A stretch of 38,665 bases of DNA from a virus. Positions 1,513 through 38,665 of the stretch are shown piece by piece (within the stretch, counting starts at the first letter, position 1; each line of letters opens with the position of its first letter). A program made the translations under genes and the position numbers. Below the pieces are notes generated by a model that worked only from the letters and a program-made list of their open reading frames with translations, did no database searches and was not told the origin of the DNA. The DNA lies in the IMG/VR virus record IMGVR_UViG_3300022752_000177, positions 1 to 38,665 of that record. The stretch is one strand, 5' to 3'.

Positions 1513-2456
1513 GCGGCTTCTCCAAACAGTCCCCCAAGCGCGTCTTGAGCGTTTTCAAGGTTGCGCACCGCTTGGCGAAAGTAGGACGGCTTAAGCTCGA
1601 TCCCGATGCCCTTGCGACCCATCTGGACGGCGCAAAACACTTCGCTGCCGATTCCGAGAAACGGTGTCAGTACGGTGTCGCCGGGGTTGCTCCACAAGTC
1701 GATGCATCGCTCGATCACATCAAGCTGCAGCGGGCTAATGTGCTGCTCGTCCTTCTCGTCGCGGCCGCCACGGTATTGCAGGGTGCGGGTCTGATTGATG
1801 TCAGTCCAGACCGGCGAGGCGTACCGCTGCCAGACCTCAATACTGTACCAGTTGCGGCCATCGGTCGGGGTGGTGAACTTGCTTTGGTCGGGTTCATCGG
1901 TGCCGCTGTAGCGGTCAAAACACCCGCTCACCGGCTCGGGGTTGTCTCCCGGCTTGCGAAACGTCACCACGTAATCAGCCAGACCCTGCCCGCTGATGGT
2001 GCTGTCCTTTACAATCTGCTTGTGCAGGAGCCGAATGGACTTTGTGCGCTGCTGGGCAACTACGGGGTCTTTCCAGATGCAAACCTCGCTATGGAAAATC
2101 CAGCCCGCGTCCTCATACGCGCGGATGACCTCGCCGCGAAAGTCTCGCATGCCGATATGGCCGTGCCGGATCTTTGACATGGGAAGCTGCATCACATGGA
2201 CCGAGTGGAGCCTTCCCGGCTTGGTGACGCGCAGAAGCTCTGCAATCAGGAACGCATAATGCTCCCAAAACTGCGGACCATCGTTGTTGGAAATGTCGCG
2301 GTCGAAGTTGCTAAACTTATACAGCCCCTCGAACGGCGGCGAGTGAATGCCAAAACCGATGCTATCGCCGGGGATCGCGCGGATCACTTCGCAGCTATCG
2401 CCCTGATAGATGGCATACTTGTCGTTTACGACTTGATCAACGGCCTTAATGGTCAT
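1509..2456 (-). CDS. DNA methyltransferase, N6-adenine/N4-cytosine (beta-class order)
   Basis: The protein is 315 residues. It transfers methyl from SAM to an exocyclic amino group of A or C in DNA. The catalytic motif IV is H-S39-P-P-F42 near the N-terminus. The SAM-binding motif I is TPFLGIGSE (264-272) near the C-terminus, followed by G-I-G-I-E-L. The order IV then I, with a long middle region as target-recognition segment, is the beta-class arrangement. SPPF rather than DPPY leaves adenine versus cytosine open. It directly follows an SNF2-like helicase gene (ATGA overlap). No cognate endonuclease is visible. It probably protects phage DNA from restriction or marks DNA during replication (inference). 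Confidence 0.85.
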   Translation of the reverse strand: MTIKAVDQVVNDKYAIYQGDSCEVIRAIPGDSIGFGIHSPPFEGLYKFSNFDRDISNNDGPQFWEHYAFLIAELLRVTKPGRLHSVHVMQLPMSKIRHGHIGMRDFRGEVIRAYEDAGWIFHSEVCIWKDPVVAQQRTKSIRLLHKQIVKDSTISGQGLADYVVTFRKPGDNPEPVSGCFDRYSGTDEPDQSKFTTPTDGRNWYSIEVWQRYASPVWTDINQTRTLQYRGGRDEKDEQHISPLQLDVIERCIDLWSNPGDTVLTPFLGIGSEVFCAVQMGRKGIGIELKPSYFRQAVRNLENAQDALGGLFGEAA

Positions 2457-3844
2457 GCGGCTTGCTCCAGAAATGCGGGAAGCTGAACAGGAATAGTGGG
2501 GTTGTAATTGGGCGTGTCGCGCACCGATCCGCGCACGGCTTTGCTCGACAAGTCCGCCATATGCAGGACCATCGCAGCGGCCATGCGGTCGGCGTCGGCT
2601 TCCTTGCGCTTGATGTTGGCAACGGTTGCGCCTTCAAGCTCGCTGGCAATGATATGAGCCGTTACAGTGCGCGTCTGGCCAAACCGCCAGAACCGGCGAA
2701 CAGCCTGATAGAACTGCTCAAAGCTATCGTTCAGACCAACAAAGCCGGTATCGGCGCAGTGCTGCCAATTCATGCCGAAACCAGCCAGAGAAGGCTTGGT
2801 GATCAGGTGCCGAATGTCGCCATCACTGAACGCAATCAGGATGCGCTCTTTCTCACCTTCAGACAGACCGCCATGCAGATTGACCGCGCCAGGGATCAGC
2901 TTTGCAAGCGTCTCGGCTTCGGCGTTGAGGTTGCACCACCAGACAAAGGGCCGATCCTTCGGCGTAATGTCTGCGGCCAGTCTGCACCGTTCTTCTACCG
3001 TGCCCCGGCGCGCGGCGATGCGCTCTTGCAACGTCTCGGCCTGCATCGGGAAAAGCATTCCCGTTTCAACATTTGGGCGATAGTCTGCGGCCACGATGTG
3101 CGACACGAAATTAAGCGGCGGCAGGTCATAGCCATCGTTCGGATAGCCAAGATCGGACGGCTTGCGCAGCATCACCGACCAAGACGCCATCCACTTCCAG
3201 AACTCGTTCTCGGCGTGACCCTTCAATCGCCACTTTTGCGTATCGCCGCCATCATGGGTAAAGAACGTGGCGAGCATGTCGGTATAGGACATGATGCCCA
3301 AGAACTCGGCATGATTGCCAAGCTCCATGAAGTCGTTCGGGGCCGGTGTGGCAGTCGCGGCAAGGCGAAACGGGATCGACTGGCAAGCCGCAATCAGCTT
3401 GCTCCGATAGTGACCTTCTGTGTTCTTAAGGATCGAACTTTCGTCCAGAATGACACCGCCAAACTCGGACAAGTCAAAGTGATCAAGCTTCTGATAGTTG
3501 GTGATATTGATGCCGGGACCGCAATCCTCTTGCCTAGCAACGACGCGCGCGGGAATGCCGAACTTGTCCGCCTCGCGCGCCATCTGATTTGACACGGCAA
3601 GGGGGGCGAGGTGCAACACGTTGCGCCCGGTTTCGTTGTGGACCGCCTGCGCCCATGCAAGTTCCATCAGGCTCTTGCCCAGACCAGTGCCAGCAAGCAG
3701 CGCGGCCCGGCCTCTACGGAGCGCCCATGCGACAATATCGCGCTGATGCGAAAACAGACAGGCAGGAAGCGCCGGAACGTCCTTAAACCCCGTCATAGGG
3801 TCGGTGATTGCCTTGCGGGCAAGAAATGCTGCGTAATGATCCAT
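2453..3844 (-). CDS. SNF2-like superfamily 2 helicase / DNA translocase
   Basis: The protein is 463 residues from ATG 3844 (a GTG one codon earlier is possible). It is an ATP-driven DNA translocase. Motif I/Walker A is AGTGLGKS (51-58). Motif II is D134-E-S-S in place of DEAH. Motif III is TATPAPND (164-171). Motif VI is QAVRRFWRFGQTR (380-392) with the arginine fingers. Motifs IV-V lie around LHGGLSEGEKERIL and TKPSLAGFGMNWQ. There is no nuclease domain, unlike type III Res subunits. The ATG overlaps the stop of an upstream mini-ORF (TGATG), and the stop overlaps the methyltransferase start, so helicase and methylase are probably co-translated. Fork remodelling or recombination is a likely role. 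Confidence 0.85.
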   Translation of the reverse strand: MDHYAAFLARKAITDPMTGFKDVPALPACLFSHQRDIVAWALRRGRAALLAGTGLGKSLMELAWAQAVHNETGRNVLHLAPLAVSNQMAREADKFGIPARVVARQEDCGPGINITNYQKLDHFDLSEFGGVILDESSILKNTEGHYRSKLIAACQSIPFRLAATATPAPNDFMELGNHAEFLGIMSYTDMLATFFTHDGGDTQKWRLKGHAENEFWKWMASWSVMLRKPSDLGYPNDGYDLPPLNFVSHIVAADYRPNVETGMLFPMQAETLQERIAARRGTVEERCRLAADITPKDRPFVWWCNLNAEAETLAKLIPGAVNLHGGLSEGEKERILIAFSDGDIRHLITKPSLAGFGMNWQHCADTGFVGLNDSFEQFYQAVRRFWRFGQTRTVTAHIIASELEGATVANIKRKEADADRMAAAMVLHMADLSSKAVRGSVRDTPNYNPTIPVQLPAFLEQAA

Positions 3845-3921
3845 CACACGCGCCCCATGGTAAACGCATGGTTAGCAGGTATGTTTAACGTCCGTTTACG
3901 GAACAGTGCTAACTTCGGCAT
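3844..3921 (-). CDS. Possible leader mini-ORF (25 aa)
   Basis: This 25-residue basic frame (MPKLALFRKRTLNIPANHAF...) has a GAGG ribosome site about eight bases upstream of its ATG. Its TGA overlaps the helicase ATG as TGATG. It could be a small protein or a translational coupler for the helicase. It lies in the short gap after the C5-methyltransferase-like gene. Evidence is limited to start, stop and spacing. Confidence 0.4.
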   Translation of the reverse strand: MPKLALFRKRTLNIPANHAFTMGRV

Positions 3922-14186: not shown

Positions 14187-15392
14187 CTATGTCCTCATAA
14201 CAGGTGGCACGTAGTGATCGGGATGACTGGCGCGCACGATGTCCCGCACGAGGGCAATCGGCATTACCTTGCGCCCGCGTTCGCCGTAGCGCCGGGATCG
14301 AAGGACCAGCGTCATGCACTGCTTGGACCGCCACCCGCCGTCATGGGCGTACTTGTCGCGCGGGGCTAGGTTGTTCCAGCTTTCAAAGACGCAGCCGGGA
14401 AGCTCTTTGCGCTGCGAATGGTGAACGTGTCCGCCGTCGATATAGCGGTACTCCGTTTCGCCCCAGTCAATAGCGTAGTCCTCCGCCATGACCTTAGCCA
14501 CCGCTTCCGGCTTGGCCTTGTCGCCGTGGTGGATCAGCACGAAGGTCTTGCCCATGCGATAGGCGATGTAGGGGCTTTCGTTCCGAAGCACGTTCACGCG
14601 CGGATTGTTCCGGTGCAGCGAGCGCATCAGGACCGCAATCCAGCTATCGTTGGATCGGGAGTGGTTGCCCTGGTTGTAAATCAGATCGACCGTGTTTGCC
14701 TTCGCCAGCGCGCGTTCCGCGATGAACTCGCAAATCTCCACATAAGCGTCGATCATCTTCCAGTAGCGGGTGTCGTAATCCACCGCGTGTCCGCTGGCCT
14801 CTGTCATGGCCTTGAACGTCTCGTAATGGGTTCCATCACCGAGATCGTTGATCACCATGCGTTCGCACGGCGGGGCCTCGTCGATCAGCGCAGCAGCGGC
14901 GGCGCATATTTCGCGCTTGGCAATGGTGATGTCGAAGTTAGCACCCGTCTCTGCCTCGCTCGCCAGCATCCCGATATGGGCGTCCCCGATTTGCAGGAAC
15001 GGCACAATGTCGGATTGCGGTTCTTCCGGTGCGGGGAGAATGGCAGGGTCTATTGGCTTGACCGCCTCGATTGCGGTGCGGATGCCTTCCCAATAGTCCC
15101 GTTCGGCGGCGCGGGTCTTGAGCCAGATCGGCTCGCCAAGTGCGGTCTTGGTGAAGTGCGAATAGCCCCGAAGCTCGAACCCTTCCGCTACGGGATGGTC
15201 AATGCCGGATTCGGGTGCGTATCCCTGTTTTGCCGCCCGCGCCTTCACCCGGCGATAGGCCTTGCTTACCGCATCTTTGCTTAGTCCTAGCGCCTCCGCC
15301 GCCTTCCGGGCGGAGCCGTGGAATATCATGCAGTCTAGGTGCTCTCGCTCAACAGGTGTGGCGAACTCATAGAGCTTGGGATCGACCTGCAC
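14187..15392 (-). CDS. HTH-metallophosphoesterase fusion protein
   Basis: The protein is 401 residues with a GTG start and an AGAGGTG site. Residues 18-50 form a helix-turn-helix (KAAEALGLSKDAVSKAYRRV). The C-terminal calcineurin-like phosphoesterase has all metal motifs: D137-x-H139, G185-D186, N243-H244, H288-H289-G-D and G321-H-V-H324. This architecture recurs in phages, sometimes misnamed oxidoreductase. The substrate is unknown; a DNA-binding nuclease or phosphodiesterase is the natural guess. It is unusual that it lies after the lysis genes, far from the replication genes. Confidence 0.8.
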   Translation of the reverse strand: MQVDPKLYEFATPVEREHLDCMIFHGSARKAAEALGLSKDAVSKAYRRVKARAAKQGYAPESGIDHPVAEGFELRGYSHFTKTALGEPIWLKTRAAERDYWEGIRTAIEAVKPIDPAILPAPEEPQSDIVPFLQIGDAHIGMLASEAETGANFDITIAKREICAAAAALIDEAPPCERMVINDLGDGTHYETFKAMTEASGHAVDYDTRYWKMIDAYVEICEFIAERALAKANTVDLIYNQGNHSRSNDSWIAVLMRSLHRNNPRVNVLRNESPYIAYRMGKTFVLIHHGDKAKPEAVAKVMAEDYAIDWGETEYRYIDGGHVHHSQRKELPGCVFESWNNLAPRDKYAHDGGWRSKQCMTLVLRSRRYGERGRKVMPIALVRDIVRASHPDHYVPPVMRT

Positions 15393-16640: not shown

Positions 16641-16894
16641 CAGTGCCCCCCGAAAATCAGCGCGCCGAACTTGACAATCAGCCCGCCGATAAAGCCCGCG
16701 AACACCATCAGGGCACCTAGCGCACCCTTTCGCTTGTTCTCGGCCTGCTTGAGCGCCTCCACGTCCGTTTTTATCGCGCGAAGCTCGTCCTTGATGTCCT
16801 GAAAGCCCTGCGACACAACTTTCTCCAAGGCTTCCAAGCTGGCCTCCACGCGCCCCATGTCGCGGCTCAGGTCTGTGTGGTTGGGCTGGGTCAC
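16640..16894 (-). CDS. XhlA-like membrane protein with coiled coil
   Basis: The product is 84 residues. Residues 13-52 are a coiled coil (VEASLEALEKVVSQGFQDIK), and residues 58-82 a hydrophobic C-terminal span (GALGALMVFAGFIGGLIVKF). This layout matches XhlA-type haemolysin/holin-associated proteins, which act with a holin in lysis. It starts by overlapping the tail spike stop (ATGA) and ends fused to the endolysin start. Confidence 0.7.
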   Translation of the reverse strand: MTQPNHTDLSRDMGRVEASLEALEKVVSQGFQDIKDELRAIKTDVEALKQAENKRKGALGALMVFAGFIGGLIVKFGALIFGGH

Positions 16895-19434
16895 GACACG
16901 CGCACCGAGTTGATCACGCTCGAAAGCGTATTGGTGCCATCCGTCTCTTGGGTCACGCCAACCACGGAAACCTGCAATCGGTCACCAGCGGCGAAGGTCG
17001 TACCCGTTGCAGCAAAAGCATAGTCAGCAGCCGCGCCAGTGACAGTCAAAGCCGCCGTGGTCACAAGGTCTGCGCTCGATGTGCCATCCGATGCGATGCG
17101 ATAGACCCGCGCTACCACCGTGCGGGTTCCCGCTGTGCCCGTCCCGGTCGTATTTGCGTTGATCGTGACGGTAATGTCGCGGCCTGGGATATACGTTGAC
17201 GGTAGGGTAAAGTCGAAAACCGCCGTAGTCGTCTTGGTGTTGGCCTGCGCGTTTTCGCCTTGCAGAGAAATTGAAGTGCCGAGCGTGGCGAAAATCTTGT
17301 ACTTGCCCGCCCCGCCAGTCGTATCAACCGGCGTGAAGTCGCTGTTGCGCGCATAGACCAGATGCCCCCGCAGCGCCGGAATGATGCCCGAATAGACCTC
17401 GGTCACTGTCATGCTGTTGACAGTGAAGTCAGTAACATTCGAGCCACCCGAAAGCATCCACGAATGTGAACTGCTAGTAGCGGTAAATGTCAGAGAGCCG
17501 TTACTGGTAATACCAGATGCCGTCGCAATGACAGTGCCGCCGCCATTCGGACCCCGAGCAAACATAGTGACGCCCGCCGCCCCAGTAACTGTGCGAGTGC
17601 CCCATGCAATGCGATAGGTCCGACCCGGCACCGTGCGCAGATTGCCATAAGCGCGTGCAAGGGTTGCCGTAGCACCCGCGATGCTGACGTTGTTGCCAGT
17701 GACCGTCAGTGTGCCGGTGTAGCCGGTTGGGATGCCCGTATCCCGGCTGTTAAACAGGTCAGTGACAAAACCGCCATTCGTCACCAGCGGGTCCAGTTCC
17801 CCCGGAACGGTGGAGACATGCACAATCTCGCGGTCAACGTAGAACGTCTTGCCGTTGTCAGCCCCCGCAGAATCGCCGCAAAGGAGATTGAGCGTGATGG
17901 TCTGGTCCGTGTCCAGAATCTGGATCATCGCAGTTGACCAGCGCCAGCCATCCCGCGCTGCCGAAGTCAGCCAGGATGTGAACACCCGGTTGCCGCCCGG
18001 ATTGGTAACAGTGATTTGCGCGCGGCCTGTGTTGTTCGCCATGTTGGCCGGAACCCAGACACGCGCCTGATAGATCAGCCACCGCTTTTTGGCGAGCGAG
18101 AGGATGCTGGTGAGGTCAACCGACTTGATGGGGTTGGCACTCGCATTTGGCGTAATCGCCATGCTATAGATGCCAGTTTCAGTATAGCCCACCGACTTGG
18201 CAGGCGTGCAGTTGGTGAAGGAATGCCCGGTCGGTGTACTGCTGGTCCAATCGGTATAAGCGGGATTGGAAAGCAGGTTCTGCGCGATGCGGTTCAGAGG
18301 CCGATTGAGCGCGGGACCGCCTGCAACCTTGCGTTCGGCCAATGCTTCACCAAGCGCCGGGAGGGCGATGTTGACACCATCCGGGACTGCGGGGTGCAAG
18401 CCGCCGTTGCCATCCTGCGTGTAGTAGGCGAGGTCAATTGTACCGCCTTCACCGCCAATCGCGGGAGTATCAAGGTTGCCCAAAGCTTCGAACTTGGCCG
18501 AAACATCGATGATGCCAAGGCCCAATTCAGCCGCGACACGTCGCCAAGTCGCCTGCACCGACCGAGAGAAACCCAGATACCGCAGCCGAGGATTTTGCAG
18601 CGTGATGAATACGTCCGCCTGCGGATTGAGGTGCATCAGATTGCTGACGCTGGTCACCATGTGCGGATAGTAGTCAGCAGGTGTCAGCAGATAGCCAAGG
18701 TTGTGCCCTTGGTTGATAAGCATCAGGTCGTAGGACCGGCCTAGCGAAAGAACGTCCAGTTCCTTGGCACCTTGCGTCGTCGCAAACTCGGAACCGGGGA
18801 TGGCGCAGTTATCGACGTAGATTGTGCGGCTTCCGGTGCCGGTCTGGATCGTGGTAGGCGACTGCCAGCCAGAGCCGTTGATATAGAGCCGATAGATGAT
18901 CGTGTGCGTCGGAGCGGCAGGCGCGAGGTATTCCGAGACCCAGCGGTAAAGCGGCTCGCCGGTATCGTTCCACGTGCTGTCCGAGTTGATGAAGATCGCA
19001 AGGTCTTCTTGCCCTGCGCGGATTTTGCGCCAGAACGCCTGACCATGCGCCGCGTTGCCGTTGCGCGTCTGGGTAATCAGCGTTTGCAGGTTCTCGTTGG
19101 TGGGGGTGTTGATGAGCGCCGCGCCTTTGGTGGCCGTGGTGCTGGCGAGGTCCGCGACAACCTGCCCCATGTTGACCGAGCGATCTACGCGCGATTGCTG
19201 GACGCTGGACGCATTGAAGTAATACAGGTCGTATGTGCCTTCCGATATCCAGAAGTCATAATTCCCGGCGTCGTCAACCTTGGCGCGATTGTTCACGCCC
19301 GAAACACTCTGGATCAGCGTCCCCGCTTCATTGGCATAGATCGGGACAACAGTGCTTCCGGTGCGCGCCTCGACGTACCAACCCGGCAGCGCATCGCCCT
19401 TGGTGTTCGTGGAAAAGCCGAAATAATGATACAT
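16891..19434 (-). CDS. Tail spike with SGNH/GDSL-type hydrolase domain
   Basis: The protein is 847 residues. Residues 1-75 are probably the virion-attachment part. Residues 145-365 look like an SGNH hydrolase: block I is S151-D152-S153 (INSDST, nucleophile S153), block III is G243-H-N245 (INQGHN), and block V is GGLH347P. The usual DxxH aspartate is not in register; the nearest Asp is D341, six residues before the His. The C-terminal half (about 380-847) has two jelly-roll-like carbohydrate-binding segments and beta-sandwich repeats. Such spikes deacetylate surface polysaccharide. It is followed directly by the lysis genes. Confidence 0.75.
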   Translation of the reverse strand: MYHYFGFSTNTKGDALPGWYVEARTGSTVVPIYANEAGTLIQSVSGVNNRAKVDDAGNYDFWISEGTYDLYYFNASSVQQSRVDRSVNMGQVVADLASTTATKGAALINTPTNENLQTLITQTRNGNAAHGQAFWRKIRAGQEDLAIFINSDSTWNDTGEPLYRWVSEYLAPAAPTHTIIYRLYINGSGWQSPTTIQTGTGSRTIYVDNCAIPGSEFATTQGAKELDVLSLGRSYDLMLINQGHNLGYLLTPADYYPHMVTSVSNLMHLNPQADVFITLQNPRLRYLGFSRSVQATWRRVAAELGLGIIDVSAKFEALGNLDTPAIGGEGGTIDLAYYTQDGNGGLHPAVPDGVNIALPALGEALAERKVAGGPALNRPLNRIAQNLLSNPAYTDWTSSTPTGHSFTNCTPAKSVGYTETGIYSMAITPNASANPIKSVDLTSILSLAKKRWLIYQARVWVPANMANNTGRAQITVTNPGGNRVFTSWLTSAARDGWRWSTAMIQILDTDQTITLNLLCGDSAGADNGKTFYVDREIVHVSTVPGELDPLVTNGGFVTDLFNSRDTGIPTGYTGTLTVTGNNVSIAGATATLARAYGNLRTVPGRTYRIAWGTRTVTGAAGVTMFARGPNGGGTVIATASGITSNGSLTFTATSSSHSWMLSGGSNVTDFTVNSMTVTEVYSGIIPALRGHLVYARNSDFTPVDTTGGAGKYKIFATLGTSISLQGENAQANTKTTTAVFDFTLPSTYIPGRDITVTINANTTGTGTAGTRTVVARVYRIASDGTSSADLVTTAALTVTGAAADYAFAATGTTFAAGDRLQVSVVGVTQETDGTNTLSSVINSVRVS

Positions 19435-29518: not shown

Positions 29519-29818
29519 TCACGATTCCAGAGGCGTGATGTTGAGCTTTGCCGCCGCCGTTTCCTGAAGGTGCGCGATGTGGGTAAAGCCCTGCACCGAC
29601 AAAATCAGGTGGTTGTTTGGCGAAAGCAGAATGTCATTGACGGTGCAGGTCGTGCCCGACGCGCCGGGGCGAACATAGCAGTTGCCGGTTGACTGCAACC
29701 GCACATGCTTGGGAGCGCGGCCCGCTGCGTTGGTCGGGATGGCCGTGGCAACCGAACCTGCGCCGGTTGTAACCTGCGTGCCGCCCGCGTTGACCGAAAA
29801 GGCTTCAAACTGGATCAT
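29519..29818 (-). CDS. Possible head decoration protein (99 aa)
   Basis: The product is 99 residues, mostly beta-strands (SVNAGGTQVTTGAGSVATAI; KHVRLQSTGNCYVRPG; LILSVQGFTHIAHL). It directly follows the capsid gene and a hairpin, a usual place for decoration proteins. Function is inferred from location and fold style. Confidence 0.5.
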   Translation of the reverse strand: MIQFEAFSVNAGGTQVTTGAGSVATAIPTNAAGRAPKHVRLQSTGNCYVRPGASGTTCTVNDILLSPNNHLILSVQGFTHIAHLQETAAAKLNITPLES

Positions 29819-29837
29819 GGGTATTCCCCAAAGGTAA

Positions 29838-29863
29838 GGGGGCCAGCCCGTAAGCCAGCCCCC
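29838..29863 (-). terminator. Hairpin after the capsid gene (weak terminator or attenuator)
   Basis: GGGGGC (29838-29843) and GCCCCC (29858-29863) form a strong stem. On the minus strand it is followed by TTACCTTT, a poor T-run. A partial terminator here would lower downstream gene dosage relative to the capsid gene; an mRNA-stabilising hairpin is the alternative. Confidence 0.5.
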
Positions 29864-29872
29864 TCAATTGGA

Positions 29873-30820
29873 TCAGGTAAGGTCGGCAGCGATGCCGGAG
29901 GCCGCTTCGTTGCGGGCTTCCAGCGTCACTTCGGTCAGGATCATCGCCTTCTCTGCGTCGCCGGTCTTGGCGAGGTCCACGGTCTGCATCGGACGCAGGG
30001 TCGCAAGCGCCCAGTAATCCGTATCCAGAATGTGAACTTCGCGGTCGGTCGCCGAAGCAGCGCCGCGCGTGAAGCGCGAGGGGACAATCTTGATGGTGCC
30101 GAAGTCCGAGACGTAAACATCGACCACCGCGTACAGGGTCTTGTCTTCGGTCTTGTCGAACTTGGTCGCGCCGCCCGTGAAGGCCGAGATAGCGCGCTTC
30201 TGCTTCGGACCACACAGGGCCATAGTGGGGTTGCCACCAGAGACCCAGCAGTTCTGCATCACGTCCTGAATGATGGTTTCCGAAACAGCACGCTGGGTGC
30301 CGTCCGTAGCCGCCGCCGAGGTCGTGCCATCCGCGCCAGAAGCGCCACGGCTGTCATTGGTGGCATACCAACCGCACAGCGGGCGCATCTGCGGTGCCGT
30401 GGTGCTGTTGCCGGTGACAGGGGCCTGGTTGGAGCAAAGCACGAACTCAAGATCGCGCTTCAGTTCCTTCGACCGCTTCTGAAGCTGGTAGACCATTTCA
30501 GACTTGCGGCCAGCCTTGTTAACCGCTTCCTGCGTGCCCGCGATCACAACTTCCTTGCGCAGGGTCTGCGTGCGGTTGTTGATGCGCGAGGTGGCGGTCA
30601 CAGCGGCGAACGAAACATCGTCGCCCTGAAGCTGCGCGTTGGCAGCGGCAGCGGCAAGGCTGTCGGTCTGCCATTCATGCAGGGTTGCAGTCGCCTTCGT
30701 CTTGCCGATCATGGACTGAAACGGCACTTCGATGGGGCTGATGTTGTAGATGGTGTCGGTGAGGTCTTCACGGTTGCCGATGGCCGAGAACGTGAGGAAG
30801 GTATTGGTAACGATTGCCAT
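29873..30820 (-). CDS. Major capsid protein (SU10/DUF5309-like)
   Basis: The protein is 315 residues from the ATG with GGAG eight bases upstream; 12 further in-frame residues upstream lack a ribosome site. The N-terminus EDLTDTIYNISPIEVPFQSM, then IGKTKATATLHEWQTDSL and RTQTLRKEVVIAGTQEAVNK, are diagnostic of the DUF5309/SU10-type HK97-fold capsid family. Late DREVHILDTDYWALATLRPM also fits. It follows the scaffold gene. Confidence 0.85.
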   Translation of the reverse strand: MAIVTNTFLTFSAIGNREDLTDTIYNISPIEVPFQSMIGKTKATATLHEWQTDSLAAAAANAQLQGDDVSFAAVTATSRINNRTQTLRKEVVIAGTQEAVNKAGRKSEMVYQLQKRSKELKRDLEFVLCSNQAPVTGNSTTAPQMRPLCGWYATNDSRGASGADGTTSAAATDGTQRAVSETIIQDVMQNCWVSGGNPTMALCGPKQKRAISAFTGGATKFDKTEDKTLYAVVDVYVSDFGTIKIVPSRFTRGAASATDREVHILDTDYWALATLRPMQTVDLAKTGDAEKAMILTEVTLEARNEAASGIAADLT

Positions 30821-30825
30821 GCTGG

Positions 30826-31749
30826 TTACTCCGCGTCGAGACGCGACAAGACCCAAGCGCGCTTTTCATCGTCGCTTGCATTGGGGCCGGGTCGCTTGGG
30901 GGCGCGCGGACTTTGCTCGGTAGCCTGTGGCTTCAGTGCCGGGCCGGGCTTCGGGGGGGCTTTCTTCTCGCCCACCGTGGCCTTGGCCTTTTGCAGTTCA
31001 TCCCAACGGCGGGCCTTGTCGGCAATCAGCCATGCCCTGTGGTCTGCCGTGTCGCGGATCGTCTCGTCATCAAATCCATTGGACTTGAGATACTCGGCGA
31101 TACCGCGCGCAAACCCTTCAAGCTTGGCCGGTTCCTTCAGTTCAGGCACAGCGGCAAGCAATGCTTCCCGTTCCCGTTGATGATATTCTGCAAGCGCCTC
31201 ATTCTGGCGCTGCTCGTTCTGCTGCCGGATGCCCTGTATCTCTCCCACGGCACTTTGGAGCATTTCGACACGCTGGTCGTACTGCGCCTTCAATGCGACG
31301 AAGGTTGCCGGGTCCTGCTGGGCGAGTGCCGCCCAATCGAGGTTAGCCGTCTGTGAGAGAATGGGATCAAGCCGCGCGAACGCTTCAACCTGCTGTTCGA
31401 GCTTGTCCGCGTATTCAGTCGCCGCCTGCCTGCGCAGTTCGGCAACTTCTGCGGTCTTGGCCTTGTAGTCCTCGGTCCTGCTATAGCCGTTGAGAAGCTC
31501 GTTAAGGGGTACTTCGACTTCTTCGCCGCGTACCTTGACCTTGTAACGGGGTTCTTCAACGGGGAGCGTTTCCTCGGTCTGGCCTTCCGCTGTTTGCGCT
31601 TCCCCCTCGGTTGCGGGTGGCTGTTCGCCGTCGCCTACGCCTTCGGGTTCGCTAGTGCTGGTGTCATCCTCCGCCAGAAATGCCGCGAGTGCGTCGGGCG
31701 GGGTGGCTTCAACGGGTGCCGCTTCGGGCGTCGCCGTATCAAGTTCCAT
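30826..31749 (-). CDS. Scaffolding protein
   Basis: The protein is 307 residues, with a very acidic and Pro/Glu-rich N-terminus (EAAPVEATPPDALAAFLAED). A short VKVRGEEVEVPLNELLNGYS element follows, common in podoviral scaffolds. Next comes a long coiled coil (about residues 95-215), and a basic Pro/Lys-rich C-terminus (KKAPPKPGPALKPQ) likely to bind the capsid. Order portal-scaffold-capsid is as in T7 and P22. AAGGTGA precedes the ATG. Confidence 0.85.
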   Translation of the reverse strand: MELDTATPEAAPVEATPPDALAAFLAEDDTSTSEPEGVGDGEQPPATEGEAQTAEGQTEETLPVEEPRYKVKVRGEEVEVPLNELLNGYSRTEDYKAKTAEVAELRRQAATEYADKLEQQVEAFARLDPILSQTANLDWAALAQQDPATFVALKAQYDQRVEMLQSAVGEIQGIRQQNEQRQNEALAEYHQREREALLAAVPELKEPAKLEGFARGIAEYLKSNGFDDETIRDTADHRAWLIADKARRWDELQKAKATVGEKKAPPKPGPALKPQATEQSPRAPKRPGPNASDDEKRAWVLSRLDAE

Positions 31750-31920: not shown

Positions 31921-32152
31921 GGACAATCGCGCGGGCCGAGATAAACTGATCGTCCACGATGGACTGAAGCTTGGTGCCGATACGGTCGATCACGCGCACC
32001 ATCATCCATGCAAATTCGCGCTGGCCCTGCTGCTCGGTTGCTGTCTTGGCCCAGACGTTGATGGCTTCCTCGCGCAGCTCGTCCATGATCTCGCGGAACA
32101 TCGGATCGTCACGAAGCTGCCGCGCATGGTTGGCGCGCTGCTCAGTATCCAA
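31907..32152 (-). CDS. Small helical virion-cluster protein (81 aa)
   Basis: The product is 81 residues (MDTEQRANHARQLRDDPMFR...), helical throughout. The start overlaps the portal gene end by 11 bases. Similar short helical proteins after portal genes occur in P22-like and N4-like phages; their role is unclear. Possible head assembly factor. Confidence 0.6.
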   Translation of the reverse strand: MDTEQRANHARQLRDDPMFREIMDELREEAINVWAKTATEQQGQREFAWMMVRVIDRIGTKLQSIVDDQFISARAIVREPD

Positions 32153-34139
32153 CTGGCTCGCCTTCCATCATCGGCTCCTGCTGCTCAAACTGCGGCATTT
32201 CTGCCTGTTCGTGCATCGGTGTCATGTCGGGGCCGGGGCCGTCCATTTCCGGCATGATATTCGGCGGCGGCGTCATCGAAGCCTTAAGCAACTCCACTTC
32301 GCCATTGATCTTGGCCACCGCAATCTTGGCGTCCGCGTCAATCTGCGCGATTTGAAGCTTGATCTGCCCATCCATCTGCGCCTTGTCAGCTTCGGGATTG
32401 GTCTGCGGCGGCTGCTGGTAGCCATCAGGATCGTTGTAGAACTTCTCGATGCCCTTCAGGCCCATCGCCTCGGTAAGCGCCTTCAGCTTGCCGTAAATCT
32501 TCTCGTAATCGACCAGCGGACCAACGGCGCCACCCTGAAGCTGAAGGATTTGCGCATCGATCTGCAAGAGCTGCTGAATCTCGGCAACCATCTTCTCGCG
32601 CGAGCCAGACCCAAGGCCCACCGTCACGCTCATATCGTATTCGGTGGACCATTCGCGCGGGTCCATCTCCACCCACTCATTGCGAAGGCGGATAACCTCT
32701 TTCTGGTCAGGGTACTTGCAAACCAGTTCCAGCATCTTGAGGAACAGCGGCTTCAGAAACTGCTCAGCGTACTGGCGCGCAAACATCTCCATGCGCTGGC
32801 CCGCTGCCGCCATGATCGACGAAATGCCCGTTGCGGTCTTGTTCAGGCTGTCAGCGTCAAGGCCCTGATTGTACCTGGTGTTGCCCGTCCGCTGCTCGCG
32901 AACCGTGTCGTAATACTCGACAATGCCCATCGAAGCACCGGCGGTGAACGGTGTTACCGCCTCCCGCATCATGCCAGCAGCCTTGACACGGATGACACCA
33001 CCAACGCGCGGGTTCAACACATCGTCAAGATTGACCTGTCCCTCGACCACTTCACGCTGCGGGCGATTGGACAGGTACAGGTTGTTCTGAATCTCCCGCG
33101 CCAGTGCGGTCTTGATAAGCTGAATATCGCGCGTCAGGTCGTGGATCGAAAGCCCCACCAGCTTGTGCGGGATCGGAATGGGCGTCCATGCCACGTAGGG
33201 ATGATCGTCAACCGGATCGTTTGACAAAACCTCGTCATTGCCGCCGCCAAGGAACACCCTGCGCCAGACAAGCTTGCCGTTGCCCTCGTAATCGCAGCGA
33301 ATATAGCACTCAGACACCCGCACCATACGGGCGAGGTCGTTGTCAGTCGTCAGCGGCGTGCTGTTTTCGCCCCAGAACCGCTCCGTCCGCTCAGTGTTGT
33401 AAGCCGTGTCGTTGTCGCTGGTGAGGCCTTCGCATTTCTTCTTGTCCAGCCCCATCGCAATAAGGTCGGACACCGAACGGCGGCTTTCCTGCCCGAGGAA
33501 GTTGGCATCTTCCAAACGGGCAAGATGCCGCTCGAACAGAAACTCGTCAGGCGCGACGCAGTAAACCGCAATCTTGCCCTTCTTGAACTTGCGCTGGCCC
33601 TGTGCGCTTATCCCATCCGGCTCCATCGTGGCGGACAGAACCTCGAAGTTCTCGTCCTGCTCAAGCGCCTGAAACTCGATCTCAGACAGGCAGCGATACG
33701 TCTCTGCCTTGTAGCTCTCGCTTTCCTCGCGCACCACCTTGCCAACGCCCAGACGGAACAGCAGCCCATCTTTCATCGACGTATGGATAATCGAGTATCC
33801 ATCGTTTCTGCGCGTGAAAAGGTAGTTGATGTACTCGCTGGCCTGCTTGCTGCTGTCTTCGTCCTCAGGCCCCTGCGGATCGAAACGAACAACCTCGTCA
33901 CCAGACACAAACGGGCGCATAAGCCCCGGAAGCATGGATTCCACCGCTTCCATCGTGTCGCGGCTGATGACCTTGGACATGCCCGGCTCATCAGGGCCGT
34001 AGCTCGTGTGAGTGTCGCCACGGTAGAACGCTAGCGCCTCACGCCGGTTCTTGCTGTACTCGCTATCAAGCCGGTTGGACGACGCATCGCGCCGCGCCAT
34101 AATCAGCGTGCGCAGCGCATCGTCGCCCATCTTCGGCAT
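32142..34139 (-). CDS. Portal protein (P22 gp1-like)
   Basis: The protein is 665 residues (P22 gp1 is 725). The N-terminus has RREALAFYRGD and DTMEAVESMLPGLMRPFVSG, typical for this portal family. A central DHPYVAWTPIPIPHKLVGLS and then GNTRYNQGLDADSLNKTATG, IMAAAGQRMEMFARQYAEQF also match. The C-terminal part is Gln/Pro/Met-rich. The dodecameric portal is the entry vertex for DNA packaging and binds terminase and adaptor. Confidence 0.9.
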   Translation of the reverse strand: MPKMGDDALRTLIMARRDASSNRLDSEYSKNRREALAFYRGDTHTSYGPDEPGMSKVISRDTMEAVESMLPGLMRPFVSGDEVVRFDPQGPEDEDSSKQASEYINYLFTRRNDGYSIIHTSMKDGLLFRLGVGKVVREESESYKAETYRCLSEIEFQALEQDENFEVLSATMEPDGISAQGQRKFKKGKIAVYCVAPDEFLFERHLARLEDANFLGQESRRSVSDLIAMGLDKKKCEGLTSDNDTAYNTERTERFWGENSTPLTTDNDLARMVRVSECYIRCDYEGNGKLVWRRVFLGGGNDEVLSNDPVDDHPYVAWTPIPIPHKLVGLSIHDLTRDIQLIKTALAREIQNNLYLSNRPQREVVEGQVNLDDVLNPRVGGVIRVKAAGMMREAVTPFTAGASMGIVEYYDTVREQRTGNTRYNQGLDADSLNKTATGISSIMAAAGQRMEMFARQYAEQFLKPLFLKMLELVCKYPDQKEVIRLRNEWVEMDPREWSTEYDMSVTVGLGSGSREKMVAEIQQLLQIDAQILQLQGGAVGPLVDYEKIYGKLKALTEAMGLKGIEKFYNDPDGYQQPPQTNPEADKAQMDGQIKLQIAQIDADAKIAVAKINGEVELLKASMTPPPNIMPEMDGPGPDMTPMHEQAEMPQFEQQEPMMEGEPVGY

Positions 34140-34141
34140 GC

Positions 34142-34327
34142 TCAGTCAGCCGCCACCGGAGGACGGCCACGGCGCTTCGGCTCTTCGCCCTGATCGGCGG
34201 AAGGCGTCACACCGCGAACCGAACAGCCCGGCTTGTAAGCCAGCATCGCCGCCTCATCGCCGCTTTCCGCTTCGACCGTTACCGTTTCAAAACCGCCAGG
34301 ACTGTAGCGGGTTACATCGTACTTCAT
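34142..34327 (-). CDS. Small hypothetical protein between terminase and portal (61 aa)
   Basis: The protein is 61 residues from the ATG with GGAG nine bases upstream; the ATG overlaps the terminase stop (ATGA). A beta-rich N-terminal half (KYDVTRYSPGGFETVTVEAE) is followed by a basic AT-hook-like tail KRRGRPPVAAD. The R-G-R-P-P core is a classical AT-hook, so minor-groove DNA contact is possible. Confidence 0.6.
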   Translation of the reverse strand: MKYDVTRYSPGGFETVTVEAESGDEAAMLAYKPGCSVRGVTPSADQGEEPKRRGRPPVAAD

Positions 34328-35607
34328 ATCGGATTGCTCCTGTATTTGAGAGAGCCTGTCCAACTGGTCGTTGGCTCGCGGTAATCTACCGCCATCAGGC
34401 CAAAAGCGTCAGCACCGTGGCTTGCCCAGTTATGATCAGGCCCGAGGCCGATCCCGCGCTTCTCGTCCCGCTTCTCGGCATAGGCGGTCAACGCATCCAG
34501 ACCGCCCTGGCACGTATCGGCATTGAACCACACGCGCGGCAGCAAGCGACGTACAGCCTCGATCCGCACCGACTTGGCACCAGAGGCCCCGGACCCTGCA
34601 TTGCGCAGCGTAGAGGCACTGAAACCCGCCTCACGAAAGGCGCCTTCCCAGCTTGCCGAACCCGGCCCGCTCTGCGTCAAGCCATCATGCGGCAGGAACA
34701 CTTCCGCGCGGGCAAACCCCCGTTCCCGCAGCCATGCAAAGTGTTCCGCAGCCGGTTGCCCTTGCGCCTCGTAATAGTCGAGGACACGTATTTCCTGCCC
34801 GATGAACTGGCAGACCCACATCGTAAACGCATCGGCCTTCGCGCCGGAACCGCCAAGGTCGCAGTAAACCCGGATCGCCATGTTCGGGTCTTTGGCCACC
34901 CGGCCAATCCGCCCCTGCTTCTTCGCCTCGGCAATCAGGTCCGCAAAGTATGCGCCTTCAATCGCCGCGTCGAAGTCGCATTCCATTTCCCGCGCGTACT
35001 CGTTCGCGCTCATCGTCTGGCGCATCGCTTCCAGCTCGCTTGCCGGAAGCAATCCCGTCTCGCTTGCCTTCATCCGCGCGGCAAACCAGTCAGGCGACGA
35101 TTCCGCCAAAACCTGCATGTCGTAAAAGGCGTTTTTGCCCTTTGACGTGCCAATGAACGTTGCCCAGCCTTGCCGATCCGCAAGAGCCGGTCGCACCACT
35201 TCCCGCCATGCCTGCGGATGATGGTCCGCAAACTCGTCCATGATCACACCGTCGAGATAGATGCCTCGCATGGCGTCATAGTTGTCGCTGCCATACAACC
35301 TGATACGTGAACCAGTCGGCAGCGTTACATGAAGCTCGCTCTCGCTTACCTCAATCCCAGGGATCGGCGCCGTGTAGAACTTGAGGTAAGACCAAGCCAC
35401 GTCTTTGGCCTGCTGGCGAAATGGCGCAATGTAAGCGAACCGGCCATCCTGCCGGGGAAACTCAATCGCCCGCCTGATCTGGTCGTTAATCGTTGCAACC
35501 GTCTTGCCAGCGCGGCGATGGGCGACAATCGAGGCAAACCGCTGCGTTCTGCTATGGTAAGGCTTGAACACCTCGCGCGGGGTGTACGGGATGATTACCC
35601 TTGCCAC
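34324..35607 (-). CDS. terL: Terminase large subunit
   Basis: The protein is 427 residues. It is the ATP-driven packaging motor and headful or site-specific nuclease. Walker A is AHRRAGKT (29-36), Walker B is VIMDE (121-125, with E125 as catalytic carboxylate), and the coupling motif is FIGTSKGKN (151-159). Nuclease acidic residues are D250 (VYCDLGGSGAKADAF), D308 (LPHDG) and D400 (SHGADAFG). The start overlaps the small subunit gene by 13 bases. Confidence 0.9.
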   Translation of the reverse strand: MARVIIPYTPREVFKPYHSRTQRFASIVAHRRAGKTVATINDQIRRAIEFPRQDGRFAYIAPFRQQAKDVAWSYLKFYTAPIPGIEVSESELHVTLPTGSRIRLYGSDNYDAMRGIYLDGVIMDEFADHHPQAWREVVRPALADRQGWATFIGTSKGKNAFYDMQVLAESSPDWFAARMKASETGLLPASELEAMRQTMSANEYAREMECDFDAAIEGAYFADLIAEAKKQGRIGRVAKDPNMAIRVYCDLGGSGAKADAFTMWVCQFIGQEIRVLDYYEAQGQPAAEHFAWLRERGFARAEVFLPHDGLTQSGPGSASWEGAFREAGFSASTLRNAGSGASGAKSVRIEAVRRLLPRVWFNADTCQGGLDALTAYAEKRDEKRGIGLGPDHNWASHGADAFGLMAVDYREPTTSWTGSLKYRSNPI

Positions 35608-36672: not shown

Positions 36673-36819
36673 TCATTGGCTGCGGTCACTGGTCTGCTCC
36701 TGCGAATGAAAACCGAATGGCTTTGTCTTTGACTCGTCCTTGCGGTAATCGAACCAGCGCGCGGTTGACTTCGGCGCTTCGTTCGTACGGTCGTTGCGAT
36801 TGCGCGGGCGGTAGGTCAT
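36673..36819 (-). CDS. Small basic hypothetical protein (48 aa)
   Basis: The product is 48 residues (MTYRPRNRNDRTNEAPKSTA...), hydrophilic and basic. Its ATG overlaps the primase-helicase stop (ATGA). No family is recognised. It is probably unstructured or nucleic-acid bound. After its stop there is only a nine-codon frame before the 179-residue gene. Confidence 0.55.
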   Translation of the reverse strand: MTYRPRNRNDRTNEAPKSTARWFDYRKDESKTKPFGFHSQEQTSDRSQ

Positions 36820-38234
36820 GCGTACGGGTCCGCTTCAATCCGGCTCTTGAAAGCGTTCATGCAGGTGTGAACCACGCCGCACTTGCCGGGCAGGCCCATG
36901 CGGACCTTGACCACTGACAAGGTTGCGCTGTTCACCGTTTTGTCGGGGCGATGATAAATCAGGCCGTAGTCAGCCTTGTTCGCCCAGTTGGCCGATCCTG
37001 CAATGTCATACAGTCCTGGGGGCGGGACGGTGCCGTCCTTCATCTTCATCGGCTTGGTGGGGTGCGCCACTACCCACAGTGCAATGTTGTACCGCTTGGC
37101 AAACCGCTTCAGTGCGCGAATTGCCCGCCCGATGTAGTCGGTTTCGGTTTCGTCGTGGTTGCGCTTGTGCTCCAGCTCATTCCACGGATCGAGCACCACC
37201 ACCTTTGCGCCATTCCGCACGACTGCAATGCGCGCCAGTTCAAGGTAGGCTTCAAGCGTGATGTCTTCGTCATCGTCGAGGGCATTGGAAATGACGGTCA
37301 TCATGCTTTCGATCTGGTCGTAAGCAGCGCGGCGCTTCGGATGGTGCGGGAAGTCCTCAAAGCTGCATCCGAGCAGAGCACGGGCGATACCGTCGCGTAA
37401 AATGGGTTTGGGAAGCGTCTCAAAGCTGGCGATGCAGACCGGCACGTTCCGATCAATACAATGCGCAAGGATGGTGTTCATCACCGTGGACTTGCCCATG
37501 TTGGAATAACCGGAAAACACGGTGAACGTGCCGAGGACGATCTGCATGTGTTCGTCAAGGGCTTCGATCCCAGTCGGCATGGCTTGAATGTCCACACCAT
37601 CGGGGAAGTCTGACATGCGGTAGAGGCCCACCACCGGAAAGGGCTTTGCCAGCGTCAGGACTTCGGCGGCGGCGCGCTGGCCGTGCTTTACCAGCACATC
37701 GTTCAAATCCTTGCAGCCCTCAGGGTACTCGACAAACTTGCAACGGTCCTTGCCCAAAATGCAGGCGAGATCGTGAGCAAGGGTCTGGCCGGGTTTGTCA
37801 CCATCGGTTGCGAGGATGATCGAAGGGATGGCCTTCAAGGCATCCTCGTGCATTTCCCACAAAAACGAATACCGCTTGGCGTTCAGCGGGTCGTCCGCCT
37901 TTTCAGCCGGCGCGCCGTTGGGGACACTCACGGCATGGGGGAAGCCACAAGCAATAGCGGCAAGTGCGTCAAACTCGCCCTCAGTGATCACAAGCGTGCG
38001 AGCGCCCTTTAACGCCTCAGCGTTCCAGAAGCAAAGCTTTCCGCCCTTGTCCATTTCGTGCTGCTTCTCGGCGGTGCGCCGATACTTGCGGTTCACGATC
38101 TGCCCGTCGTGCATGTAAGGGATGGACAGCCAGTACGCGTCGTGCCGCCGAACCGTTGTAATCCCGAACTTCTCCGCCAAATCGGATGGGATGCCGCGAG
38201 CCTGAAGCCATTCCCTGTGCGGTCCTGCAATCAT
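36816..38234 (-). CDS. Primase-helicase (TOPRIM plus DnaB-like, T7 gp4-like)
   Basis: The reading frame gives 472 residues from the ATG with AAAGGA upstream. TOPRIM primase residues are E85 (LVITEGEFDA) and D144-G-D146 (LATDGDKPGQ). The RecA-like helicase has Walker A GYSNMGKST (242-250) and Walker B VVVLDPW with D349, then a VVAHPTKP sensor. It makes RNA primers and unwinds the fork, as in T7 gp4 and Twinkle. The zinc-binding domain expected at the N-terminus is encoded immediately upstream in another frame, so the true product may be a fusion made by frameshifting. Confidence 0.85.
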   Translation of the reverse strand: MIAGPHREWLQARGIPSDLAEKFGITTVRRHDAYWLSIPYMHDGQIVNRKYRRTAEKQHEMDKGGKLCFWNAEALKGARTLVITEGEFDALAAIACGFPHAVSVPNGAPAEKADDPLNAKRYSFLWEMHEDALKAIPSIILATDGDKPGQTLAHDLACILGKDRCKFVEYPEGCKDLNDVLVKHGQRAAAEVLTLAKPFPVVGLYRMSDFPDGVDIQAMPTGIEALDEHMQIVLGTFTVFSGYSNMGKSTVMNTILAHCIDRNVPVCIASFETLPKPILRDGIARALLGCSFEDFPHHPKRRAAYDQIESMMTVISNALDDDEDITLEAYLELARIAVVRNGAKVVVLDPWNELEHKRNHDETETDYIGRAIRALKRFAKRYNIALWVVAHPTKPMKMKDGTVPPPGLYDIAGSANWANKADYGLIYHRPDKTVNSATLSVVKVRMGLPGKCGVVHTCMNAFKSRIEADPYA

Positions 38235-38388
38235 CGGTCGTTCCTTTGAAACCACAGTGATGGCAGAACCAAACCATTCCGCCGTTGTCGGTTTTGCTCA
38301 CGTTGAGGCAGGGTTCCTTGCGGTGCCTGCGGTGTTCGGAGCATTGCGGGCAAGTCTGCTTGCCCAGCTTGGCGGGGGCCCAGGTCAT
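38017..38388 (-). CDS. Primase zinc-binding domain in a separate frame
   Basis: The first ~50 residues are a primase zinc ribbon: C13-P-Q-C16, a linker with C27, then W-F-C42-H-H-C45-G-F-K-G, matching the zinc domain of T7-like primases. After about residue 52 the frame (to 123 residues) is only a shadow of the primase gene and looks noncoding. The primase frame takes over at +1 relative to this one, near GGTTTCAAAGGAACG (about 38240-38255). So this may be a separate zinc protein with a read-through tail, the first part of a frameshifted fusion, or evidence of a one-base sequence error. The ATG overlaps the previous stop. Confidence 0.65.
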   Translation of the reverse strand: MTWAPAKLGKQTCPQCSEHRRHRKEPCLNVSKTDNGGMVWFCHHCGFKGTTDDCRTAQGMASGSRHPIRFGGEVRDYNGSAARRVLAVHPLHARRADREPQVSAHRREAARNGQGRKALLLER

Positions 38389-38665
38389 ACGCCCACCGCC
38401 ACGGTGCTACTTCGGGCCGGTGTCACCCACTCAGCCTTGAAACTTTGCCACCCTCGAGTAATTGTTTCGGTAAATGCCTGTTCCAACGGCCAACCAGCTT
38501 TCGCGGCTTCCCGCTCCATGCCAGCAACCACGGTCTCAGTGACGGGAGCACGCTTTTTGCGGCGAACCTCCAGAAAATCCGCCCATGTCTGCGCACTCAC
38601 CCCTTCCGGCTTGGCCGGTGCCCTTACGCGCGCGGGTTTATTATCCGGGTGGGTATGGGTGGGGG
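38385..38665 (-). CDS. Replication-initiator-like protein, C-terminal half (open at the window edge)
   Basis: The frame is open to the right edge. Complete codons begin at 38663, giving 92 residues before the TGA. It starts in a PTHTHPDNKPARVRAPAKPE linker and then has a compact domain with W..FLEVRRKKRAPVT, a central REAAKAGW segment and a final TRGWQSFKAEWV. Phage replication proteins often end this way. A GTG at 38600 could start a 71-residue product, but it has no clear ribosome site and would begin inside the conserved domain. I therefore read this as the distal part of the gene that leaves the window at position 1. Joining the two ends directly is out of frame; one extra base (mod 3) restores the frame. 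Its stop overlaps the primase zinc-domain start in an ATGA. Confidence 0.7.
   Translation of the reverse strand, partial: PTHTHPDNKPARVRAPAKPEGVSAQTWADFLEVRRKKRAPVTETVVAGMEREAAKAGWPLEQAFTETITRGWQSFKAEWVTPARSSTVAVGV
38647..38665 (+). other. G-rich tract with G-quadruplex potential (right edge)
   Basis: G-runs at 38647-38649, 38651-38653, 38657-38659 and 38661-38665 have loops of 1, 3 and 1 bases, a canonical tight quadruplex pattern. If the molecule is circular, this tract is continuous with the G-rich tract at positions 1-43. Together they would form about 60 bp of strongly strand-asymmetric DNA in the middle of the split initiator gene. Confidence 0.65.

Follow-up and report, generated by a model that had tools for sequence, protein, structure and literature searches.

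The locus described here lies at the right end of an IMG/VR virus record of 38,665 bases, on its minus strand; the whole record is referred to as the window. Two genes lie there in different frames (Table 1): a short gene, Z, with a primase-type zinc ribbon, and a longer gene, H, which encodes a primase-helicase and lies in the +1 frame relative to Z. The first-pass annotation had placed the four ribbon cysteines (C13, C16, C42 and C45) in one frame and the TOPRIM-helicase in the +1 frame, with the zinc frame free of stops for about 70 further codons, and the open reading frames and their translations bear out both statements. The first mechanical start of the H frame is GTG 38255 and its probable start is ATG 38234. 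The ATGA overlap at 38385-38388, shared by the stop of the upstream reading frame and the start of Z, suggests that these two genes may be translationally coupled. H was assigned to the DNA primase/helicase family phrog_239 (E 5e-75) and matched T7 gp4 structures, in which gp4 residue 81 lines up with H residue 17 when H is numbered from GTG 38255, and it carries TOPRIM and RecA helicase domains on one chain as a gp4 homologue does. The zinc domain, which T7 gp4-type enzymes hold in the same chain and frame as the helicase, was separated from it by the +1 offset in every relative of this type that was scored. Other genes in the window, all on the minus strand, include those for a terminase large subunit (34324-35607), a portal (32142-34139), a tail fibre (16891-19434), a DNA repair exonuclease (14187-15392) and a DNA helicase (2453-3847); a plus-strand ORF of 491 aa (29705-31180) had no PHROG match.

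Table 1. Features at the right end of the window; coordinates are those of the window.
Feature	Position	Strand	Description
Upstream ORF	38385..38663	-	Truncated at the window end; stop TGA overlapping the Z ATG (ATGA)
Z (zinc gene)	38017..38388	-	123-aa ORF from ATG 38388: primase-type zinc ribbon and out-of-frame tail
Zinc ribbon	38254..38352	-	C13-x2-C16 ... C42-x2-C45; Cys invariant in alignment A1
Z tail past last Cys	38017..38253	-	Rich in Arg and Gly, with disorder predicted in this phage; frame under selection for openness
Z stop	38019-38017	-	TGA
TTTCAAAGGA	38251-38242	-	Includes AAAGGA 38247-38242
Internal Shine-Dalgarno	38242..38247	-	AAAGGA, 7 nt before H ATG 38234, within Z codons
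H (helicase gene)	36816..38234	-	From ATG 38234, 472 aa: N-terminal RPD segment, TOPRIM, RecA/DnaB-like helicase
Anchor R	38196..38198	-	Invariant Arg codon (169/169) within the RGI motif; zero point of all distances
Dual-coding Z/H overlap	38017..38234	-	218 nt
TOPRIM domain of H	37692..37997	-	Pfam Toprim_4 and Toprim_2
RecA/DnaB-like helicase domain of H	36840..37577	-	Pfam AAA_25, KaiC/ATPase; PHROG DnaB-like

A set of 169 distinct helicase N-termini with upstream DNA was assembled from IMG/VR scans and one phage record, and the helicase was read in the zinc frame +1 in all 168 distinct relatives with a scorable ribbon, at helicase identities of approximately 34-70%. The linkers between ribbon and helicase fell into nine length classes of 46-70 nt, all spaced by multiples of three. 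The same offset was present in genomes of isolates, among them Sphingopyxis sp. PET50 and Sphingomonas baiyangensis, in phage BDU-MI-1, and at GTDB prophage-like loci in Sphingomonas, Novosphingobium, Sphingopyxis, Methylobacterium, Nitrobacter, Bradyrhizobium and Rhodobacteraceae. The break between the frames is genuine, and one of the checks proposed in the first-pass annotation, whether relatives keep it, has a clear positive answer. Homologues with both domains fused in one frame and with a longer linker were found in other phages and in bacteria (MinM2, vB_RanS_PJN03 and elemoA; L156, a fused outgroup, and L298). In a tree of 143 helicases, the split and fused types were separated with few changes, at least three label changes being forced by the starred branches, and the deep forks were weakly supported. 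That every clade uses one and the same frame may be due to common ancestry, or to the other frame being usually closed in these GC-rich genes; where the Z tail matters, indels other than multiples of three are barred.

A stop in the zinc frame corresponds to a helicase codon ending in T followed by a codon beginning with AA, AG or GA. Openness was assessed in 150 dereplicated sequences, which were retained on the basis of a recognisable ribbon and frame, with openness past the ribbon playing no part in the choice. T-ending codons preceded AA, AG or GA in 0/1091 cases within overlap codons 0-28, compared with about 12-14% for the same codon pairs over most of the remainder of the helicase gene, and the count stayed at zero in each of six subgroups. 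In the 73 sequences with short tails, the Z stop lay 47-128 nt after the RGI codon. The 77 with long tails, the window among them, contained no zinc-frame stops up to R+171 (0/1320), and all 77 were thus open to that point as against 8 of the 77 in synonymous shuffles. For the window's subgroup the constraint ended at approximately R+177, which is the Z stop of this window, with decay at the neutral rate thereafter; in the other long tails it ended near R+290. In a stringent set, all 36 sequences were open against 15.5 expected and the third frame was open in only 5, although this set only partly offsets shared ancestry, which the P values otherwise ignore. Chance openness of GC-rich DNA was ruled out by the synonymous shuffles, by control windows and by the other frame. 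The second frame is open beyond chance given the first protein, as in overlapping genes, and selection strongly favours an open zinc frame far past the ribbon. This was absent from the first-pass annotation, and the locus is a true overlapping-gene pair with a dual-coding Z tail.

Synonymous constraint within the overlap differed between tail types. Relative to expectation, synonymous codon conservation was 1.33-1.46 across the last 24 Z-tail codons in the short-tail group P0003 and 1.36 where the Z tail ends in the short-tail group P0007, and in both groups it dropped to about 1 shortly past the Z stop. The P0003 tails end in the motif YGxLQRxARxxW, in which Y, G, L, R and W are more than 90% conserved, and the short tail was modelled as a loose linker followed by a short helix of middling confidence. 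Reduced synonymous change, a further mark of overlapping genes, was therefore found in the short-tail groups and was weak (0.95-1.2) in the long-tail type that includes the window, where selection is evident on the openness of the tail and any specific role of its sequence would be hypothetical. As for the ribbon itself, the two Cys pairs of a primase zinc domain are invariant, and the corresponding fold was seen in the Z model of relative L099, whose nearest solved folds were the T4 gp61 and DnaG zinc domains at low Z-scores of 4.1-4.8; matches to that model, including the Twinkle zinc domains, covered a similarly low range of 3.6-4.8. The model of the window's own Z had a ribbon with pLDDT above 90 and a disordered tail, and it gave no significant match to the PDB by Foldseek. 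Searching by sequence with the Z profile yielded no useful match.

The first-pass annotation had also read the overlap as holding a ribosome site for the downstream ATG, and the relatives reinforce this. A start codon was present between the ribbon and the conserved core in 141 of 149 relatives (126 ATG, 14 GTG), a count that is somewhat inflated, as the nearest fitting codon was chosen for each sequence; resampling of Z-synonymous sequences gave 39 start codons. The mean Shine-Dalgarno dG at the H start was -8.05 kcal/mol, compared with about -4 for other ATGs or random positions and with -7.03 under the same resampling (p 7e-8, kinship ignored), so that most of the Shine-Dalgarno strength comes along with the Z residues. 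GGA made up 58% of Gly codons in the linker and 10% in the helicase body. This bias and the Shine-Dalgarno comparison do not depend in that way on the per-sequence choice of start, and together the GGA bias and the excess over resampling indicate that the internal ribosome site is selected. The inner gene thus has translation signals of its own, as expected of an overlapping gene. The possibility that the Shine-Dalgarno is a mere by-product of conserved Gly codons was ruled out by the Z-synonymous resampling. The canonical H start was absent from its expected place in eight of the 149 relatives, and was doubtful in a ninth (L203) and in L060 and L192. Those eight (L006, L012, L248, L206, L226, L195, L193 and L287) have no ATG, GTG or TTG at the usual helicase start, where several carry a near-cognate ACG, CTG or ATT; farther upstream, seven of them offer an ATG or GTG in frame and L193 offers neither.

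Several relatives depart from the common arrangement. In L334 the zinc gene (1178-1486) and the helicase gene (1486-2922) overlap by 1 nt, Z ending at the TGATG of H; this locus sits inside an otherwise nested clade, sister to nested relatives, and appears to be a natural reversion or an alternative arrangement. As the two are ordinary adjacent genes there, fusion of the zinc domain to the helicase is not required. In L198 (1212-1877 (+) and 1501-2955), the one sequence of the 169 outside the ribbon scoring, the ribbon has been swapped, in the same frame, for a DnaG CHC2 zinc domain (PF01807, E 1e-29), a match confined to this locus; its frame still overlaps that of the helicase, and the +1 offset is unchanged. 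Loci that appeared to have no zinc domain proved to carry CxxxC or CxxxxC variants or, in L198, the DnaG-type domain. Relative L145 was considered as an offset-2 exception and rejected, its N-terminus being at +1 with a separate break later on; this extra frame break, near 1708 within the helicase, lies beside a T run and represents an error or a pseudogene. No recognisable zinc ORF was seen upstream in L305 and L310 (Reyranella and Asaia), which belong to the same helicase clade, and their zinc gene may have been lost or may lie elsewhere.

Three options had been offered in the first-pass annotation, namely a programmed frameshift, two separate proteins made by internal initiation and a one-base sequence error, and they fared differently. 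An error of sequencing or assembly in what is truly a single-frame gene can occur in a metagenome-derived record, and the outgroups do carry both domains in one frame; however, the same offset recurs in 168 of 168 relatives at approximately 34-70% identity, from many assemblies that include isolate genomes and phage BDU-MI-1, which refutes this option, and the zinc frame is selected to stay open, so that its probability is negligible. The two-protein option is well supported by the selected Shine-Dalgarno and start codon and by the adjacent genes of L334.

A programmed +1 frameshift in the linker, for example on the AAA_G within TTTCAAAGGA, would yield a fusion resembling gp4A, with unshifted ribosomes producing Z and internal initiation producing a form resembling gp4B. 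The re-pairing codon AAA_G is indeed present in the window, the two domains are fused in outgroups, and eight relatives are without a canonical internal start. The constant +1 offset (168/168), a fixed relation between two ORFs of the kind expected for programmed frameshifting, is also expected under dual coding and is therefore not specific to it. As a general mechanism, however, the reading is not supported: no slip site shared among the 149 relatives was found, the types differing, and the classical +1 re-pairing codon is absent from the usable stretch in 40/149. Further, in 21/149 the stretch from ribbon to start contains an H-frame stop, followed in each case by ATG or GTG, the linker has no strong peak of synonymous conservation, Z is selected open 28-110 codons beyond, L334 offers no overlap in which to shift, and AAAGGA is accounted for by Shine-Dalgarno selection. 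Linker frameshifting is accordingly regarded as improbable, and even a minor +1 product is unlikely on the basis of these sequences. Less probable still is a frameshift at the Z stop, by which ribbon and tail would be joined to the helicase with the RGI segment skipped. In the short-type groups the positions of Z stops are conserved and synonymous constraint peaks just before the stop, but the stop contexts are diverse, the constraint in one group extends over about 24 codons and is more like that of a peptide motif, the long-type stops are spread across 300 nt, and the product would lose the universally conserved RGI motif.

The explanation judged highly probable is that the overlapping genes encode a separate primase zinc protein and a primase-helicase similar to T7 gp4B, with the zinc domain supplied in trans by way of an overprinted tail. 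Under this arrangement, Z would be a small stand-alone primase zinc-binding protein whose frame runs on through the start of the helicase gene, and H would be initiated independently from the Shine-Dalgarno and ATG embedded in Z, roughly where T7 begins gp4B, giving a TOPRIM-helicase without a zinc domain. Both proteins would be made, with the helicase-only product probably predominating, and Z would bind the H ring and serve it with a zinc domain in trans. The Z tail, produced by out-of-frame reading of the helicase N-terminus, would do the binding, tethering or positioning Z; docking of this tail on the helicase is plausible by analogy with the helical motif that follows the ribbon in T4. 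A more tentative proposal, possible but held with less than even confidence, is that this lineage of Alphaproteobacteria phages possesses a previously undescribed primosome, composed of a zinc-less primase-helicase ring and a free zinc-ribbon protein whose docking tail is overprinted on the helicase N-terminus; in that case, many substitutions at the start of the helicase would at the same time alter the tail that binds it.

In T7-type primases, template recognition depends on a tethered zinc domain. Here the tether is cut across a deep clade, with an out-of-frame tail in its place, and the locus therefore offers a natural setting in which to test primase zinc domains that act in trans, as well as a clear example of a domain split with overprinting among tailed phages. 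Tether length has been proposed to affect primer length in T4 (PMC10359460). The arrangement also calls for caution in annotation, as the zinc gene is easily overlooked; the annotation of phage BDU-MI-1 names the helicase alone at this place, as primase/helicase, and assigns no gene to the zinc ORF. Searches of the open-access literature found no primase split or overlapping in this way.

Among known systems, T7 gp4 (63-kDa gp4A and 56-kDa gp4B) is the closest in content, having the zinc ribbon, the RPD with TOPRIM and the RecA helicase, and an internal start at about the same place that gives a helicase form without the zinc domain. The parallel with the short T7 protein drawn in the first-pass annotation holds in position, H residue 17 being aligned to gp4 residue 81 and gp4B starting at codon 64; gp4B is without primer synthesis and retains helicase activity (PMC9198812). 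By this analogy H would correspond to gp4B and Z to the missing zinc domain. However, both T7 forms are read in one frame, whereas the zinc domain here lies in another frame and, judging from the sequences, forms a separate protein with a tail of its own. Fused phage and Twinkle-type primase-helicases (phrog_239, with the examples named above) share the homologous helicase and the same ribbon type, but are encoded in a single frame with a longer linker and no overlap. The T4 gp61/gp41 system and DnaG share the zinc fold, and the T4 zinc domain uses a helical motif immediately following the ribbon to dock on the helicase (PMC10359460); those systems join the zinc domain to the RPD and keep the helicase as a separate protein, whereas here it is the RPD and helicase that share a chain, with the zinc domain apart. 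As in the overprinted viral genes reviewed in PMC8227390, a second frame is held open by selection within an existing gene. The overlap at this locus differs in splitting what is one multidomain enzyme in homologues, the new reading forming the tail of that enzyme's own first domain.
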